A DNA stretch of 15,705 bases from Campylobacteraceae bacterium (GTDB lineage: Bacteria > Campylobacterota > Campylobacteria > Campylobacterales > Sulfurovaceae). The notes below the pieces were generated by a model. The model was not told where the DNA came from and did no database searches. It worked only from the letters and a program-made list of their open reading frames with translations. Shown piece after piece: positions 3,080-13,156 of the stretch (position 1 is the first letter of the stretch; every line of letters begins with the position of its first letter). Both the position numbers and the translations under genes were made by a program. The stretch covers positions 1-15,705 of the forward strand of contig JALWLW010000074.1 of the NCBI GenBank assembly GCA_027081065.1, read 5' to 3'.

Positions 3080-3586
3080 CTAAACCATCTTTAAATACAT
3101 ATATAGCCCCTCTACCAAATCCTGAGGTTCTGGTGGACAACCAGCAATATGAAAAGAAGGTGTAAAAAAGCTCTTCTCTTCTTTTTCCATTAATGCAAAA
3201 TTGTTTTTAAATGATGTACAAAACAAAGTACAATCTCCTATTGTGACAATATGTTTAGGCTCTTTTAATGCATCAACTACTTGTTCCAATTCCAAGGAGA
3301 TATTTTGCGTCATGAGACCTGTGAGACATACAATGTCTGCTTCAGAAGCATTATAAACAACTTCTATGCCTACAGAGGCTAAATTATGTAAAGGAGAGAA
3401 GAGTAATTGCAACTCTAACTCACAACCATTACATGAGCCTGTATCAAAAATATATAATTTTAATACAGAAGAAAATTTTTCTTTAATGATTCTCTTTAAT
3501 CCTTTTTCTATATCCAACATAAATGAAGCTTTAGCTCTTTTTTTACTATTACTAATGGTAAATTTTTCTTTAAACAGTCCAAGCAT
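3080..3586 (-). CDS. NuoB-like / group 4 hydrogenase small-subunit-like iron-sulfur protein
   Basis: Small subunit of the complex I / energy-converting hydrogenase superfamily (NuoB, HycG, HyfI type), 168 residues. The N2-type [4Fe-4S] ligands are all present: C52 and C55 (TGSCNGCE), C119 (IGDC) and C150 (GCPPEP). About 40 extra, basic residues precede the conserved domain. In known complexes this subunit passes electrons between the large subunit and other iron-sulfur carriers at the membrane interface. The start ATG at 3586 has AAGG 7 bases upstream, overlapping the stop of the large-subunit gene; the intergenic gap is 9 bases. It is the last gene of the unit and is convergent with ung. Because its partner lacks NiFe ligands, hydrogenase function is not expected. 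An isolated NuoB paralogue is the alternative label, but pairing with a HycE-like protein favours the hydrogenase-related lineage. Confidence 0.88.
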   Translation of the reverse strand: MLGLFKEKFTISNSKKRAKASFMLDIEKGLKRIIKEKFSSVLKLYIFDTGSCNGCELELQLLFSPLHNLASVGIEVVYNASEADIVCLTGLMTQNISLELEQVVDALKEPKHIVTIGDCTLFCTSFKNNFALMEKEEKSFFTPSFHIAGCPPEPQDLVEGLYMYLKMV

Positions 3587-3595
3587 CTTATAACC

Positions 3596-4951
3596 TTATA
3601 AATCTATAGCTGATATATTAAGAGGTATACTCTTAATAACTAAATCCAGTTTTGAAACATTAGTATCTTTTAAAAATAGAGGTAATGCTTGTGCATTTAA
3701 AAAACTTGGGTCACGTAAAAAAAATCGCTCTATTTTAGAATCTTTAAGTGCTATGTACATCATAACTTCACCAGCTGAACTCTCAACATATGAGTAGTAT
3801 TCACCATCAACCATTGTACCTAAGAAAAAAGGTAAGAGATTCTGGTTTGCTAAGCTTCTCATAATTCGTAACGAACTTAATATCTCCGTTATTCGGACAT
3901 TAAATCGACCAAAAGTATCTCCTACTTCTTCAAGATTTATATGAAAATCATGGTTTAAATAGAACTCATCTTCTTCTCTTCTATCTAACCTAATACCTGC
4001 AGAACGTGCCATTAATCCTACTAAACCATAGTCAATTACTTGATTTCTTGATATTTCTCCCAAAAGAAGTGTATCCCATAAGATTTTATCTTTTGTCTCA
4101 ATCCATTTTTGAAATTCAAGTAACTTTTTTTCTAAAAAAAATAAAAATTCATATACTTCATCTATATTAATAGACTCAATATCTATTTTTATAGACGAGA
4201 AACCAAAACGATGACCTGTTAATTTTTTCATAATATTTCTTGCATCTTCTACAAACACTATAAAAAAATTTGCCCCATCTTTAAACCCAACCAATTGACA
4301 TAACATAGATAAATCCGTCAAATGATTAATAATTCTTTCTAGTTCAAGTAAAAACAGATGTCTTTTTTGAAGCATAATTGGTAAAGTTTTTTTAGAAGCT
4401 TGTAGCTTAATATCTAAAAAAGCTATCTGATAAGCAATTGTCTGAGAAGCTGAAATACGTTCAATAATAGGTGCTGCCTCTTCAAGGCTTAATCCTTCCA
4501 ACATTTTTTCAATACCTCTATATTTATAAAAGGTTTTTGCTTCAAAATTTAAAATAGTATTTTCTTTATCAAAAACTTGAAACTGACATGACTCTAAATG
4601 AAAAGGGTGTGTAGGTCCAATACTTACCCTCTGAGTATCTTTATCTTCAAGTTCTTCTACTTTTTTGTATTCTAAAGTTTTCGTTGTAAATGCTTTTCTC
4701 ATAGGGTAACAAGTATCAGAAAAGTGTTTATGATAAACTAAAGGACGTTTATCATTACTATAAAGTATTTCAATACCAAAATCATCAGTAATTTTACGTT
4801 CAAACCAAGTTGCAGCTGGATATTCTCCTGCAATTGAAATTAGAGCAGGTGTTTTTTTATTAAGTCGTTCTTTAACAGTACGTTCGTCATAAACTGTAAT
4901 AACCTCAAAAAATGCTTCTTTTTCTTGAGCAAAACGTGCAATTAATCTCAT
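3596..4951 (-). CDS. HycE/NuoCD-like large subunit lacking NiFe-ligand cysteines
   Basis: 451 residues with two fused domains. Residues 1-90 resemble NuoC/30-kDa (EYPAATWFERKITDDFGIE at 43-61). Residues 108-451 resemble NuoD/49-kDa and the group 4 hydrogenase catalytic subunit (IGPTHPFHLES at 111-121, FYKYRGIEKMLEG at 141-153). True group 4 hydrogenases bind NiFe with two CxxC motifs: the first, ER-C-G-I-C, reads ERISASQ here (164-170), and the C-terminal DPCxxC reads DPSFLNA (414-420). All four metal-binding cysteines are therefore absent, as in NuoD. It probably docks with the small subunit encoded 9 bases downstream. Only 6 bases separate it from the upstream gene, and no good Shine-Dalgarno is seen, which suggests translational coupling. 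It best fits energy-converting-hydrogenase-related (Ehr-like) proteins or a divergent complex I paralogue. The substrate is unknown. Confidence 0.85.
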   Translation of the reverse strand: MRLIARFAQEKEAFFEVITVYDERTVKERLNKKTPALISIAGEYPAATWFERKITDDFGIEILYSNDKRPLVYHKHFSDTCYPMRKAFTTKTLEYKKVEELEDKDTQRVSIGPTHPFHLESCQFQVFDKENTILNFEAKTFYKYRGIEKMLEGLSLEEAAPIIERISASQTIAYQIAFLDIKLQASKKTLPIMLQKRHLFLLELERIINHLTDLSMLCQLVGFKDGANFFIVFVEDARNIMKKLTGHRFGFSSIKIDIESINIDEVYEFLFFLEKKLLEFQKWIETKDKILWDTLLLGEISRNQVIDYGLVGLMARSAGIRLDRREEDEFYLNHDFHINLEEVGDTFGRFNVRITEILSSLRIMRSLANQNLLPFFLGTMVDGEYYSYVESSAGEVMMYIALKDSKIERFFLRDPSFLNAQALPLFLKDTNVSKLDLVIKSIPLNISAIDL

Positions 4952-4957
4952 ATATAC

Positions 4958-5599
4958 TTAAGCTTTTTTATTCAAAATATCTTCATAAAAATGATAGCAA
5001 CTTACAAAAATAGTATCATCTTCCATTTTAATACGCTTATCATCATTCATAAATGCTTTACGAAGACGTTTCATGACTTTAATTTTTCGTTTTTCTTTAG
5101 AAATTTTACAACGTTCAAAAAATTCGTCTAAAGTTATCCAACAATCTTCATCTTCAATACGCTCTGTTAAAGAGAGTGCTTCAATAGGAGCTGATTGACT
5201 CTCTAATTCCTTTTGCTTATCTATAACCATATAATCAACTTGTTTTACATAAAGGTTACGCATTTCACTAAATACTTGCTTTAAAAGTTCAATTTCCCCT
5301 CTAAGTGTTGTATTTATTTCGGTATTGGTATGCTTAAGATCAGAAATGCTCTCTTGTAATACTGAAATAGTTTGATCTTTAGAGGTCAAGAGCTCTTTTA
5401 CATCAACAAGATGAGGAGCAACTTTCTCTTCTGAAATTTTATTAGTCTCTTCTTTATTTTCAACTTCATCTACCACAATATAAATCTTTCCATCAACCGT
5501 TTTAGAGAGCAATGTCCCTTTTTTAATTTTTGCATAAACAGCTTGACGTGATATTCCCTGTGATGAAGCATATTCAATAGGTTTTATTAATTTACTCAT
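4958..5599 (-). CDS. Helix-turn-helix plus coiled-coil protein, probable DNA-binding regulator
   Basis: 213 residues, soluble, no signal peptide. Residues 1-42 look like an excisionase/MerR-like DNA-binding domain: the run QGISRQAVYAKIKKG (14-28) followed by a beta-wing KTVDGKIYIV (33-42). Residues about 66-132 are heptad-rich and probably coiled coil. Residues 150-213 form a second basic domain (CWITLDEFFERCKISKEK at 153-170), perhaps another winged helix. The plan resembles small uncharacterised Campylobacterota proteins (possibly the DUF3972 type, not verified). ATG at 5599 has AAGG 9 bases upstream. It is first in the unit and lies 6 bases before the NuoCD-like gene, so it is likely coexpressed and may control or scaffold that module. 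That role is inference from position. Confidence 0.7.
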   Translation of the reverse strand: MSKLIKPIEYASSQGISRQAVYAKIKKGTLLSKTVDGKIYIVVDEVENKEETNKISEEKVAPHLVDVKELLTSKDQTISVLQESISDLKHTNTEINTTLRGEIELLKQVFSEMRNLYVKQVDYMVIDKQKELESQSAPIEALSLTERIEDEDCWITLDEFFERCKISKEKRKIKVMKRLRKAFMNDDKRIKMEDDTIFVSCYHFYEDILNKKA

Positions 5600-5687: not shown

Positions 5688-5933
5688 TTAAATGATACTA
5701 CTAACTTCATCCATCTCTTTCATTGTTTTGTAGCCAATAATCCCATCTACAACTAAAGTTTTTTGAGATGATTGAAAAGCTTTAACTATTTTTTCCATCT
5801 CATACGAAAAAATACCATCTTCTTTTAATTCATAACCAATTGTATTTAAAATTTTTTGAGCGATATAGACCATGGTTCCCGTCTCTCCTCTTGACAAAGC
5901 TTGAAAACTTCTACTTATATCAACACTATTCAT
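5688..5933 (-). CDS. Stand-alone peptidoglycan-binding (PG_binding_1-like) domain protein
   Basis: 81 residues made up almost wholly of one peptidoglycan-binding fold: IAQKILNTIGY (24-34), then the tandem DGIFSYEMEKIVKAFQ (39-54) and VDGIIGYKTMKEM (62-74), the usual DGxxG-T-AxxxFQ and VDGIxGxxT pattern. In known proteins this domain anchors a hydrolase or transpeptidase to the cell wall. Here there is no catalytic domain, no signal peptide and no membrane segment. A very good GAGGAG Shine-Dalgarno lies 7 bases before ATG 5933, which supports a real gene. It is flanked by noncoding DNA of 88 and 286 bases and is probably monocistronic. It could be a fragment of a former endolysin or a cytoplasmic protein that reuses the fold. 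Confidence 0.75.
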   Translation of the reverse strand: MNSVDISRSFQALSRGETGTMVYIAQKILNTIGYELKEDGIFSYEMEKIVKAFQSSQKTLVVDGIIGYKTMKEMDEVSSII

Positions 5934-6219
5934 TATTAACTCCTCTATTTCCTAAAATCTTATTATTTATCATTTTATTTTTTATTAAACTTCTAAGAGT
6001 AGTTTTTTTATAAATTTTTTTGAAAGTTTAATATTATTACTACTTATATAAAGGAGTATAAAATAAAATAATAATTGTTAGGGAATATTATAAACCCCCT
6101 AAAAAAGTCCATTTTCTTAAGGGTTTAGGTGAATAATAGTTGATTTAATTTATATGTTAAAGAATAAGAAAAGGTTATCTTTTTTACTATACTGAGTAAA
6201 TAAGTAACCAATTTTTTAC
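5934..6219. other. AT-rich noncoding gap of 286 bases
   Basis: No coding frame is supported. On the minus strand a TATAAT lies at 6092 to 6087, without a clear -35; if it drives the peptidoglycan-binding gene the leader would be about 150 bases. TAAACCC (6091-6097) and GGGTTTA (6121-6127) form 7-bp arms around a 23-base loop, the only GC-richer spot in the gap. A structured leader or small RNA is possible but not demonstrated. Confidence 0.35.
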
Positions 6220-6224
6220 TTATT
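6199..6224 (-). terminator. Hairpin at the end of the exporter operon
   Basis: AATAAGTAA (6199-6207) and TTACTTATT (6216-6224) are perfect 9-bp arms with an 8-base loop, overlapping the stop codon of the small secreted-protein gene. It is AT-rich and not followed by a strong U-run on the minus strand, so it may protect the 3' end or stop transcription weakly rather than act as a classical intrinsic terminator. Confidence 0.35.
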
Positions 6225-6753
6225 GAATCTCTTCTTCTGCAGCTGCTACAGAAACTGTTACTCCTTTATCAGTTGTAGTAACTACCTTGTTGTCTACTTT
6301 AGTAGAAATTGTTCCAACATTAACAGGGACAGCCACAACTCTTGACCCTTCTCCTTCTACTGAGAGAGTAAAGTTAAGATAGTGAATACCATCTTCTGCT
6401 GATGAAACTTGAAGTGCTATAGGAAAACTTTTTTCTCCTTTTGACAAATCAAATTCTAAATTTTTTTCTTCATTCAATAAACTATCATCTAAAGCTTTAA
6501 TATTTACCTTTAAAGTACCTTTACTAAGCCCCGTTGTTAAAACCACATTAACATTACTTGTCTCACCTACCTCTACATGTTGAGATTTATATGATAAATC
6601 TATTGCCAATCCTGGTTTAGCTACTTGATCTACCGTTGTTCCCTCAAGTACACTGTATACTGTTTTATTATCATCTTTTACTTTTGATGTCATTGCTATT
6701 GATGAGACGCTTAAAAGCATACTTGATGCTACTATAATTCTTAATGTTTTCAT
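6220..6753 (-). CDS. Small secreted beta-sandwich-like protein of unknown family
   Basis: 177 residues, not recognised. Residues 1-20 are a signal peptide: MKTLR, hydrophobic core, SIA ending. The mature part is rich in alternating hydrophobic/polar runs (VNVVLTTGLSKGTLKVNIKA, about 68-87; FPIALQVSS, about 110-118; IHYLNFTLSVEGEG, about 123-136) which suggest an all-beta, immunoglobulin-like fold. There are no cysteines and no catalytic motif. The C-terminal tail is acidic. A good AAGGA Shine-Dalgarno overlaps the stop of the preceding metallopeptidase gene, and the gap is 12 bases, so the two are translated together. It may be a partner, substrate or inhibitor of the protease; that is inference from position. 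Confidence 0.75.
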   Translation of the reverse strand: MKTLRIIVASSMLLSVSSIAMTSKVKDDNKTVYSVLEGTTVDQVAKPGLAIDLSYKSQHVEVGETSNVNVVLTTGLSKGTLKVNIKALDDSLLNEEKNLEFDLSKGEKSFPIALQVSSAEDGIHYLNFTLSVEGEGSRVVAVPVNVGTISTKVDNKVVTTTDKGVTVSVAAAEEEIQ

Positions 6754-6765
6754 TTTAAATATTCC

Positions 6766-8433
6766 TTAGTTTAATGTAATGTTAAATATATTTCCCGAAT
6801 TTTGGTTATAGACAATAACAGCCATTCGGTAAGTTCCAGCACTTAAATTCACACTCAATGAATCCGTTACCCCTTCAGCAAGAGCTGAGGCAATTTCTTG
6901 ACTTGAGCCACTTTCATAAAGTAGCATATCAGGGTCAGGTGTTCCACTACCTCCAACTTGACTAATGTTAAACTGATACCTACCACTGGCTGGTATTGTA
7001 ATCTTTATAAAATTATAAGTACCTAATTTACTAGAACTTGTACTTGCACTTGCTGAGTAATTTGTTACAATATTTACTGAGCTTCCTACACGTAAATCAG
7101 CATACAATGGATTTGCATTCTCTAATACCCTATTAATTCTACCTGTTCCATAAATATCCGTAATAGGTGCAATACTTTCATTACTTGTCAATGCATCTAT
7201 GGCTGTATCATTACCAGGAACTTCTGCTTTTAGACCTGTAATAAAACTAAAAATACTGGTAAATGCTGGAGTATCTTTTTGATGATTTATAAATACTTTA
7301 TGAATAGGTGTAAAGCCTAAAGAAAGCGTATCCCCTGCATCATCTTGACTATCATATATATCATAAAGTATATGGTAAATAGATGCCTCATTATACCAAC
7401 CAGCATTGGTTGTTGAGCCACCATTTTCTAAGTTTGCATAAACCCCTGTAGATGATTGTCTTGAAGAGGATGAATCTTGATATAAAGGGCTATCAATAAT
7501 CATACAACCAATGGCTGTTCCAAACCCCTCTCCAAAAGCAAGACGAATATCTAGCATATCCCCTCTACTATGTCCACCACCTAAACTATCTGAACGTGAA
7601 AACTGATTTTCATAATAGTGTCCCCACTCATGGGCAACAACAGCTGTATCATACTCATCGGTATCAGAATCTTCAGCACCTAAAATATAAATAGACTCCC
7701 CATCATAATGTGAAGTAATAATTTGCCCTAAATTTTTATTTCCACTCGCAGCAATATTATATTTTGACCAAAAAATATCTAAAGGAGGGAAAACAACATC
7801 ACTTTGTGCTGTTTTAACTTTTTGCACTGCTTGATAGACTACATCTAAAATAGCAAAAGGTGCAGCTACACGTTTTGAACTATAAGAGCTACCTCCCCAC
7901 CCTGAACTGGCATTTAAATTACGTGTTTGTCTACTCCCTGTTCCCAAAGAAGACAGTGAACCTTCCATACTATAGAGTGCATTTGAATTTGTATTGTCTC
8001 GAACCTCAAAATCCCAACTAGATGCACCAGCTGCTCTAGCCTTATATAACTTACTATATACACGAACCTTTACCCGTGCTCCAGTAACAGATAATGAATA
8101 AAAACCATTAGCATCTGTCACAGTTGAACCAATGGTTCTTCCTGAACTATCAATAACTTCAACTAAAGCACCTCTAACTTTTTTTTGTATGATATTGTTA
8201 TAGTTTAAGCCCCCTGAACCACTTGAGCTAAAAGGTACAAAATCATAGGTAACTATGCCCGATAAAGTTACCTCTGATTCTGTACCATTATTTGTGGGCG
8301 TAGATGTTGTTGCTGGAGGTATTGTTCCAGAACTAAGAGAGGGACTTGAAGAAGAAGTTGTATTTTCTCCTCCACAAGCTGTTAAAATGAGCATCGCCAC
8401 TAATATTAAATAAAACCTTTTCTTCTGTTGCAT
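6766..8433 (-). CDS. Lipoprotein zinc metallopeptidase with carboxypeptidase-regulatory-like and PPC domains
   Basis: 555 residues. A lipoprotein signal ends in the lipobox LTAC with C20 as lipidated residue, followed by a Ser/Thr-rich linker to about 52. Residues 55-128 form a carboxypeptidase regulatory-like beta domain (GALVEVIDSSGRTIGSTVTD, 88-107; NGFYSLSV, 109-116). The catalytic centre is HEWGH at 268-272, with GEGFGTAIG at 301-309 giving a probable third zinc ligand E302, the gluzincin pattern. Residues about 470-555 match a pre-peptidase C-terminal (PPC) domain ending in SLSVNLSAGTYRMAVIVYN (525-543). It is expected at the cell envelope, anchored in the outer membrane or facing out. 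The start ATG 8433 has AAGGA upstream. It follows the exporter gene by 56 bases and precedes the secreted protein by 12. Substrates unknown. Confidence 0.87.
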   Translation of the reverse strand: MQQKKRFYLILVAMLILTACGGENTTSSSSPSLSSGTIPPATTSTPTNNGTESEVTLSGIVTYDFVPFSSSGSGGLNYNNIIQKKVRGALVEVIDSSGRTIGSTVTDANGFYSLSVTGARVKVRVYSKLYKARAAGASSWDFEVRDNTNSNALYSMEGSLSSLGTGSRQTRNLNASSGWGGSSYSSKRVAAPFAILDVVYQAVQKVKTAQSDVVFPPLDIFWSKYNIAASGNKNLGQIITSHYDGESIYILGAEDSDTDEYDTAVVAHEWGHYYENQFSRSDSLGGGHSRGDMLDIRLAFGEGFGTAIGCMIIDSPLYQDSSSSRQSSTGVYANLENGGSTTNAGWYNEASIYHILYDIYDSQDDAGDTLSLGFTPIHKVFINHQKDTPAFTSIFSFITGLKAEVPGNDTAIDALTSNESIAPITDIYGTGRINRVLENANPLYADLRVGSSVNIVTNYSASASTSSSKLGTYNFIKITIPASGRYQFNISQVGGSGTPDPDMLLYESGSSQEIASALAEGVTDSLSVNLSAGTYRMAVIVYNQNSGNIFNITLN

Positions 8434-12883: not shown

Positions 12884-13156
12884 TTATTCTTTTAACCCTT
12901 TCCACTCTTTTTCACATTTTTCATAACTTTTTTGACGTTGATAAATATCTAAGGTTTTAACGATGCTATAAACTAGTCCAATAAAAAAAATAATCATTGC
13001 CCAAACTTCCCACTCCCTTATATCAAAGTTTAGTTGAATTAATGTCAAAGCTAACCAGAGCACTACTATTTCAGCTAAAAAATAGATAATAGGTACAATT
13101 AAACGTTTTTGTCTACGTTCAATAACTTTGTCACTATAGCCTGTTATCCTACTCAA
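12884..13156 (-). CDS. Small two-helix membrane protein
   Basis: 90 residues, not recognised. Two hydrophobic segments, about 20-43 (IVPIIYFLAEIVVLWLALTL) and 51-69 (VWAMIIFFIGLVYSIVKTL), are joined by a short loop, with basic residues before the first (ERRQKR) and a charged tail after the second, suggesting both ends face the cytoplasm. The start is TTG at 13156: it has a strong AAGGAG about 6 bases upstream and overlaps the stop of the large lipoprotein gene by 4 bases (TTGA), so translation is coupled. Its 3' end lies 5 bases from the convergent tRNA-Glu gene, leaving no space for a normal terminator. It probably works with the lipoprotein. Confidence 0.75.
   Translation of the reverse strand: MSRITGYSDKVIERRQKRLIVPIIYFLAEIVVLWLALTLIQLNFDIREWEVWAMIIFFIGLVYSIVKTLDIYQRQKSYEKCEKEWKGLKE

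Follow-up and report, generated by a model that had tools for sequence, protein, structure and literature searches.

A NuoB/NuoCD-type gene pair of a Sulfurovum-like bacterium as a probable Ehr-type core without its membrane subunits

We analysed a 15,705-nucleotide contig from a Sulfurovum-like bacterium (JALWLW010000074.1, assembly GCA_027081065.1; hereafter the window), which encodes a hydrogenase-like large subunit, LARGE1, and small subunit, SMALL1. The two proteins probably descend from a complex of the Ehr type (energy-converting-hydrogenase-related), a relative of group 4 hydrogenases within the complex I superfamily, whose four membrane subunits have been lost, leaving the catalytic core to function as a soluble pair. 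Ehr complexes were reportedly described earlier by Coppi and by Marreiros. In PMC10284858 and PMC3569383, they are defined by a group-4/complex-I-type large subunit lacking the CxxC NiFe motifs; the latter source places them in many microorganisms, and the former states that their function is unknown. In the window's list of open reading frames (ORFs), three tandem genes lie on the minus strand, with boundaries unchanged from those given in an earlier reading of these letters alone (the original prediction):

3080..3586, minus strand: SMALL1, 168 amino acids, NuoB/HycG-type, Pfam PF01058, four cluster cysteines
3596..4951, minus strand: LARGE1, 451 amino acids, NuoC-NuoD-type fusion, PF00329 and PF00346, no NiFe ligands
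4958..5599, minus strand: helix-turn-helix (HTH)/coiled-coil protein, DUF3972 match, 6 nucleotides upstream of LARGE1

The presence of both PF00329 and PF00346 in LARGE1 bears out the predicted NuoC-NuoD fusion. The loss of the NiFe site is common to the whole LARGE1 subfamily and is no quirk of the window copy. Residues were compared in an alignment that joined 78 LARGE1-type proteins, the window copy among them, with HycE, 55 Ehr large subunits and further sequences; the 78 are P0001-P0078 of the 120 proteins listed from the search described below, three of them 420 amino acids long, with the shorter P0079-P0081, P0085 and P0112 excluded. Aligned to Escherichia coli HycE, the ligands C241, C244, C531 and C534 correspond to S167, Q170, N445 and A448 of the window protein, and cysteine is absent from all four columns (0/78 LARGE1-type, 0/55 Ehr and 0/3 Lentisphaerota proteins). 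The earlier conclusion that every NiFe ligand is replaced thus stands, but the motif offered for the second ligand pair, DPSFLNA (residues 414-420), does not, since it lies about 30 residues ahead of the true site. HycE DPCYSC (529-534) aligns instead with PLNISA at residues 443-448, the extreme C terminus of LARGE1; the structural alignment of the predicted LARGE1 model with HycE of formate hydrogenlyase reaches model residue 449 (chain residue 535), within the last ten residues, which are modelled at low confidence. One cysteine scan took in DPSFLNA and the stretch of the first ligand pair, and the true C-terminal columns were counted separately. Three positions follow from the HycE alignment:

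4442..4453, minus strand: first NiFe-ligand pair position (HycE C241, C244), LARGE1 codons S167-Q170
3608..3628, minus strand: second ligand pair and canopy Asp position, LARGE1 codons 442-448 (IPLNISA)
4592..4594, minus strand: equivalent of the β1-β2-loop Glu (HycE E193), LARGE1 codon E120

The pocket around the vacated site is partly retained. The canopy Asp (HycE D529, P443 in the window) is Pro in 76 of the 78 LARGE1-type proteins, whereas it is Asp in all 55 Ehr large subunits; the canopy Arg (R478) is replaced by Ala, Ser or Gly in 68/78 and by Ile or Leu in 54/55, respectively. The β1-β2-loop Glu is kept in 76/78, and the equivalents of the inner residues H284, E437 and R395 in 74, 78 and 78 of 78. 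The roles of the canopy, loop and inner pocket residues are as given in PMC9474812.

The placement of LARGE1 with Ehr rests on its relatives, their gene order and a tree. A protein search with LARGE1 returned 521 matches; among the 120 listed, a first subfamily shares 51-70% identity with LARGE1, its named members being Sulfurovum metagenome-assembled genomes (MAGs) or an unclassified bacterium, and a second shares 42-46% and includes Sulfurimonas and Nitratifractor. Scanning genome contigs with the single LARGE1 sequence as query gave no matches; the scan with an alignment of both subfamilies, for which the best 80 of 83 matches were kept, gave 77 loci. In the second, Ehr-type subfamily, membrane genes resembling hyfB, hyfC, hyfE and hyfF stand in line with the large subunit at 58 of 66 loci, with all four present at 47; the remaining eight are not assessable, comprising L049, where all four hyf genes are present and no large ORF was called, and seven loci whose large gene starts less than 900 bases from a contig end. 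All three Lentisphaerota loci carry such an operon, one of them cut at the contig end. The first subfamily (the window, L001-L005 and L065) consists of the large-small pair only, with membrane genes beside it in 0/7 loci. Two Campylobacterota-type Ehr operons, L057 and L035, occur in MAGs named Piscirickettsiaceae and Thiotrichaceae, and are either mis-binned or transferred.

In a tree of 60 large subunits, which contains no Geobacter or Nitrospira Ehr rows, the first subfamily forms one clade (100/100), which groups at 100/99 with the second subfamily from Campylobacterota, and HycE and NuoD fall elsewhere. The closest relatives of LARGE1 are Campylobacterota Ehr-type operons, in line with the "Ehr-like" reading of the original prediction. 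The Lentisphaerota rows have Ehr operons, as does the second subfamily, so the simpler history would be one in which the membrane genes were lost. The original prediction had allowed that the pair might prove an ordinary complex I paralogue or a known Ehr complex; LARGE1 does not group with NuoD, and in none of the seven loci does the pair stand beside membrane subunits. We likewise rejected a NuoD paralogue from an incomplete nuo operon, given the tree placement and the separate NuoD-type protein in five of the six pair genomes. The tree labels NuoD and G4hyd are mixed, in that five loci labelled hydrogenase but without the NiFe motif group with L088. These sequences (L088, L193, L195, L196, L198 and L199) constitute a second large-subunit lineage of 541-603 amino acids, NuoCD-like in length and without the NiFe motif, which is found in several family members separately from the usual NuoD and includes the best NuoD-type match in G003.

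SMALL1 retains all four predicted [4Fe-4S] cysteines, as originally described. Of 42 small-subunit matches, 34 proteins (P0121-P0154, window included) form the SMALL1 set and eight (P0155-P0162) are other hits; C52, C55, C119 and C150 are present in 34, 34, 33 and 33 of the 34. The surface that would face a membrane arm has changed. Section 12 of PMC9474812 gives the name "NDUFS7 loop" to HycG residues 69-80 and counts it among four loops that lie between the soluble and membrane arms; by our count by eye this stretch of HycG terminates in SPRHAD. SPRH is found in 55/55 Ehr small subunits, 3/3 Lentisphaerota proteins, 8/8 further hits and HycG, and SPRQ in one NuoB from each of five pair genomes; SPR occurs at the loop positions in 0/34 SMALL1-type proteins, where DASE is the commonest string. 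In the window, the small-subunit alignment places the change at:

3341..3352, minus strand: replaced NDUFS7-loop motif, SMALL1 codons 79-82 (NASE)

Loss of the SPRH loop is the strongest sequence sign, albeit an indirect one, and suggests that the pair has left its NuoH-type subunit. The genomes point the same way. Within the window, no antiporter, ferredoxin-like or maturation gene adjoins the pair, which is flanked by an ung-type ORF (identified by eye, as in the original prediction, rather than by family search) on one side and a PG_binding_1 gene on the other; the ORF list and Pfam agree here with the borders first described. In five of the six draft pair genomes PF00146 (NuoH type) has a single match, located on the nuo contig, and in G005 it has none, so that no NuoH-type protein was found outside nuo in the six, five of which are informative. 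For PF00361, those five genomes each have three matches on the nuo contig, and G002 and G003 have one more apiece, beside a 956-957-amino-acid protein; we take the extra two for DabB/DabA-type inorganic-carbon loci. A NuoD-type protein besides LARGE1 is encoded on the nuo contig in the same number of genomes (a fused NuoCD type in G003), and PF01058 finds NuoB plus SMALL1 in five and SMALL1 alone in G005, with two extra matches in G003 and one in G004.

These data bear on the possibility that the resident complex I lends its membrane arm to the pair, which would dock there as an alternative, ferredoxin-fed Q-module. In five pair genomes the nuo contig encodes a NuoH-type protein and three of antiporter type, which would provide such an arm, and the retained β1-β2-loop Glu is compatible with it. 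However, the NDUFS7-loop motif is gone from every SMALL1 protein yet kept in the NuoB of those five genomes, the interface His (HycE H188) is retained in just 53/78 LARGE1-type proteins, and each of the five already encodes a NuoD-type protein on that contig; we consider docking improbable. Of the two options left by the original prediction, a complex borrowing membrane parts encoded elsewhere loses ground on the absence of NuoH outside nuo and the loss of the SMALL1 loop, and a soluble electron-transfer or sensory device fits better, although it is unproven.

Comparison with known systems places the pair nearest to Ehr (EhrL; Campylobacterota hyfB-C-E-F-large-small). It shares with Ehr the NuoC-NuoD fusion, the absence of NiFe cysteines, the four-Cys small subunit and the adjacency of large and small genes in the same order, and the large subunits are about 36-46% identical among full-length loci. 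It has no adjacent membrane subunits and differs further in the loss of SPRH, the canopy Asp-to-Pro change and its restriction to 6/175 family genomes. From HycE/HycG of formate hydrogenlyase, a group 4 [NiFe] hydrogenase, the pair differs in lacking the four NiFe cysteines, the canopy Arg and Asp and the interface loop motif, and no HycB/C/D/F or Hyp genes stand beside it; the proximal [4Fe-4S] cysteines are present. Complex I NuoB/NuoC/NuoD shares the fold and the Pfam domains, but LARGE1 lies off NuoD in the tree and outside a nuo operon, SMALL1 has a CxxC rather than the tandem-Cys cluster motif and neither SPRQ nor SPRH, and a separate NuoD-type protein is present in five of six pair genomes. 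The fold comparisons of the LARGE1 and SMALL1 models covered the best 50 entries each, and other folds may match further down the ranking.

MBS, a sulfane sulfur reductase, is a member of the complex I superfamily that, like the pair, works without an intact NiFe site. A sulfur-related, MBS-like role would suit the named relatives, which are mostly Sulfurovum MAGs among the matches listed, as well as the pocket that, judging from the fold, remains beside the cluster, and the MBS chains among the homologues. Against this, none of the genes next to the pair was recognisable as a sulfur gene, and MBS is a membrane-bound, archaeal complex with weak sequence similarity (6u8y_L, E 2.1e-5), so we give such a role little credence.

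The HTH gene lies directly upstream of LARGE1 in the same orientation at five of seven loci, with a gap of 6-42 nucleotides depending on the chosen start codon. This arrangement would be expected if the pair were a redox or metabolite sensor signalling to the co-transcribed HTH protein, which would then regulate genes. However, of 175 genomes in the GTDB family, 125 carry the HTH gene, and just four of those 125 (G001-G004) hold the pair; the 125 include neither G005 nor G006, and at L005 and L065 the pair has no HTH gene next to it. The sensor reading is accordingly unlikely, and the original description of a module with "its own" HTH protein, replacing the missing subunits, does not survive these counts; for the same reasons we rejected the HTH protein as a dedicated partner. 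It is a general gene of the lineage and probably shares only a transcript with the pair. Gene identities in this neighbourhood were read by eye from translations, without family search. A pair-free order, 2-oxoacid:ferredoxin oxidoreductase-type genes-HTH-f17-f5-S20-prfA, is found in L185 and L186, and L187 matches it from the last oxidoreductase gene onward; L004 has the same order with the pair inserted. The pair is thus an optional cassette of two genes at this site, and its HTH-containing surroundings also occur where it is missing. The ferredoxin-oxidoreductase-type genes (5807-9090 in L004; 6547-9785 in L005) end about 200 nucleotides before HTH in L004 and before LARGE1 in L005, an adjacency that is suggestive of an electron donor and may be accidental.

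An Ehr-type large subunit is present in 39/175 family genomes, counted by large subunit rather than operon context: 37 at E below 1e-60 and 37-45% identity (some partial), plus edge fragments in G149 and G173. No genome has both pair and Ehr (0/175), which we discarded as evidence of mutual exclusion because zero overlap is expected by chance with probability 0.21. In an order-level sample (398 genomes from a larger group), the pair is found in G002 and G004 alone. Three order members (G370, G379 and G511) have two LARGE1 matches each, at 43-45% and 29-30%, that is, two Ehr-like large subunits. Decay of an Ehr operon in place was also rejected, as G167 and G168 have the Ehr large subunit on another contig and HTH-f17 closed without the pair, an argument that is not strict because the contigs are short.

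Codon comparisons indicate that both genes are apparently under purifying selection. Between the window and L001-L003, 46-57% of comparable fourfold sites differ in LARGE1 vs 14-16% of second codon positions, and 60-73% vs 21-25% in SMALL1; the contrast, which is near saturation and carries no test statistic, persists at more distant loci except for SMALL1 vs L004. That the pair is a functionless relic decaying after loss of its membrane arm might be suspected from its patchy presence (6/175), but it is very unlikely given 78 LARGE1-type proteins at 51% identity or more, conserved cluster cysteines in the small subunit, 88 LARGE1 positions conserved at 97% or more in the 78-protein set, and the second-position constraint.

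Several observations weigh against a soluble, Ehr-derived core. Only seven genomic loci are available, the window and six draft MAGs. The tree tool warned of long branches meeting between the two halves of the tree, and nesting of the first subfamily within Ehr (80/95) is not separated from a sister position (AU-test p 0.454), so that loss of the membrane arm is a parsimony argument. Loss of the canopy Asp is less striking than the "strictly conserved" of PMC9474812 would imply, since the residue is Asn in the three Lentisphaerota Ehr proteins and four aligned NuoD. G005 has neither nuo nor NuoD and is evidently incomplete, so absence there means little. The ferredoxin-oxidoreductase genes are not tied to the pair, as the same genes and HTH also occur without it. 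For SMALL1, the window and L004 show weak contrast (9/24 fourfold sites, 38%, vs 24% of second positions). Finally, because Ehr function is unknown, none can be transferred to the pair; in the open-access literature of one library, searches for Ehr in Sulfurovum or Campylobacterota, membrane-less forms and EhrL found nothing relevant beyond the cited Ehr papers.

Our best guess for the predicted [4Fe-4S] unit is a role in electron transfer. Judging from its four conserved cysteines, SMALL1 would hold one [4Fe-4S] cluster at the proximal/N2 place, and LARGE1 would be the scaffold around it, with a metal-free pocket that keeps the loop Glu and the inner His-Glu-Arg residues but not the canopy Asp and Arg. 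In the most likely mechanism, the cluster would exchange single electrons with a soluble carrier of low potential (ferredoxin or flavodoxin), and the electrons would then reach either a docking protein or a small molecule in the pocket that once held the active site; no ion pumping would be involved. More broadly, a Sulfurovum-like lineage may have stripped a complex-I-superfamily machine to a membrane-free NuoB/NuoCD core without a metal site and given it a new cytosolic electron-transfer job, a proposal we hold tentatively, with doubt slightly ahead of belief. If true, such a core would reverse the common course, in which a soluble hydrogenase gives rise to a membrane pump. That a natural two-subunit version exists suggests a benefit in retaining the core by itself, and the pair, of about 620 residues, offers a small target for asking what an Ehr core does without its membrane arm, bearing on how redox cores and ion pumps join and part in the complex I superfamily.

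Elsewhere in the window, positions 12884-13156 give a weak, sub-threshold Pfam match to PEX11 (E 5.5e-4), probably spurious. Upstream of HTH, positions 5688-8433 contain a three-gene block that is conserved in the same place in L001-L003: the PG_binding_1 protein (81 amino acids), a 177-amino-acid exported-looking protein and a 555-amino-acid lipoprotein-like protein whose HEWGH stretch, read by eye, resembles a metallopeptidase motif. The slot of this block is filled by 2-oxoacid:ferredoxin oxidoreductase-type genes in L004 and related genomes.
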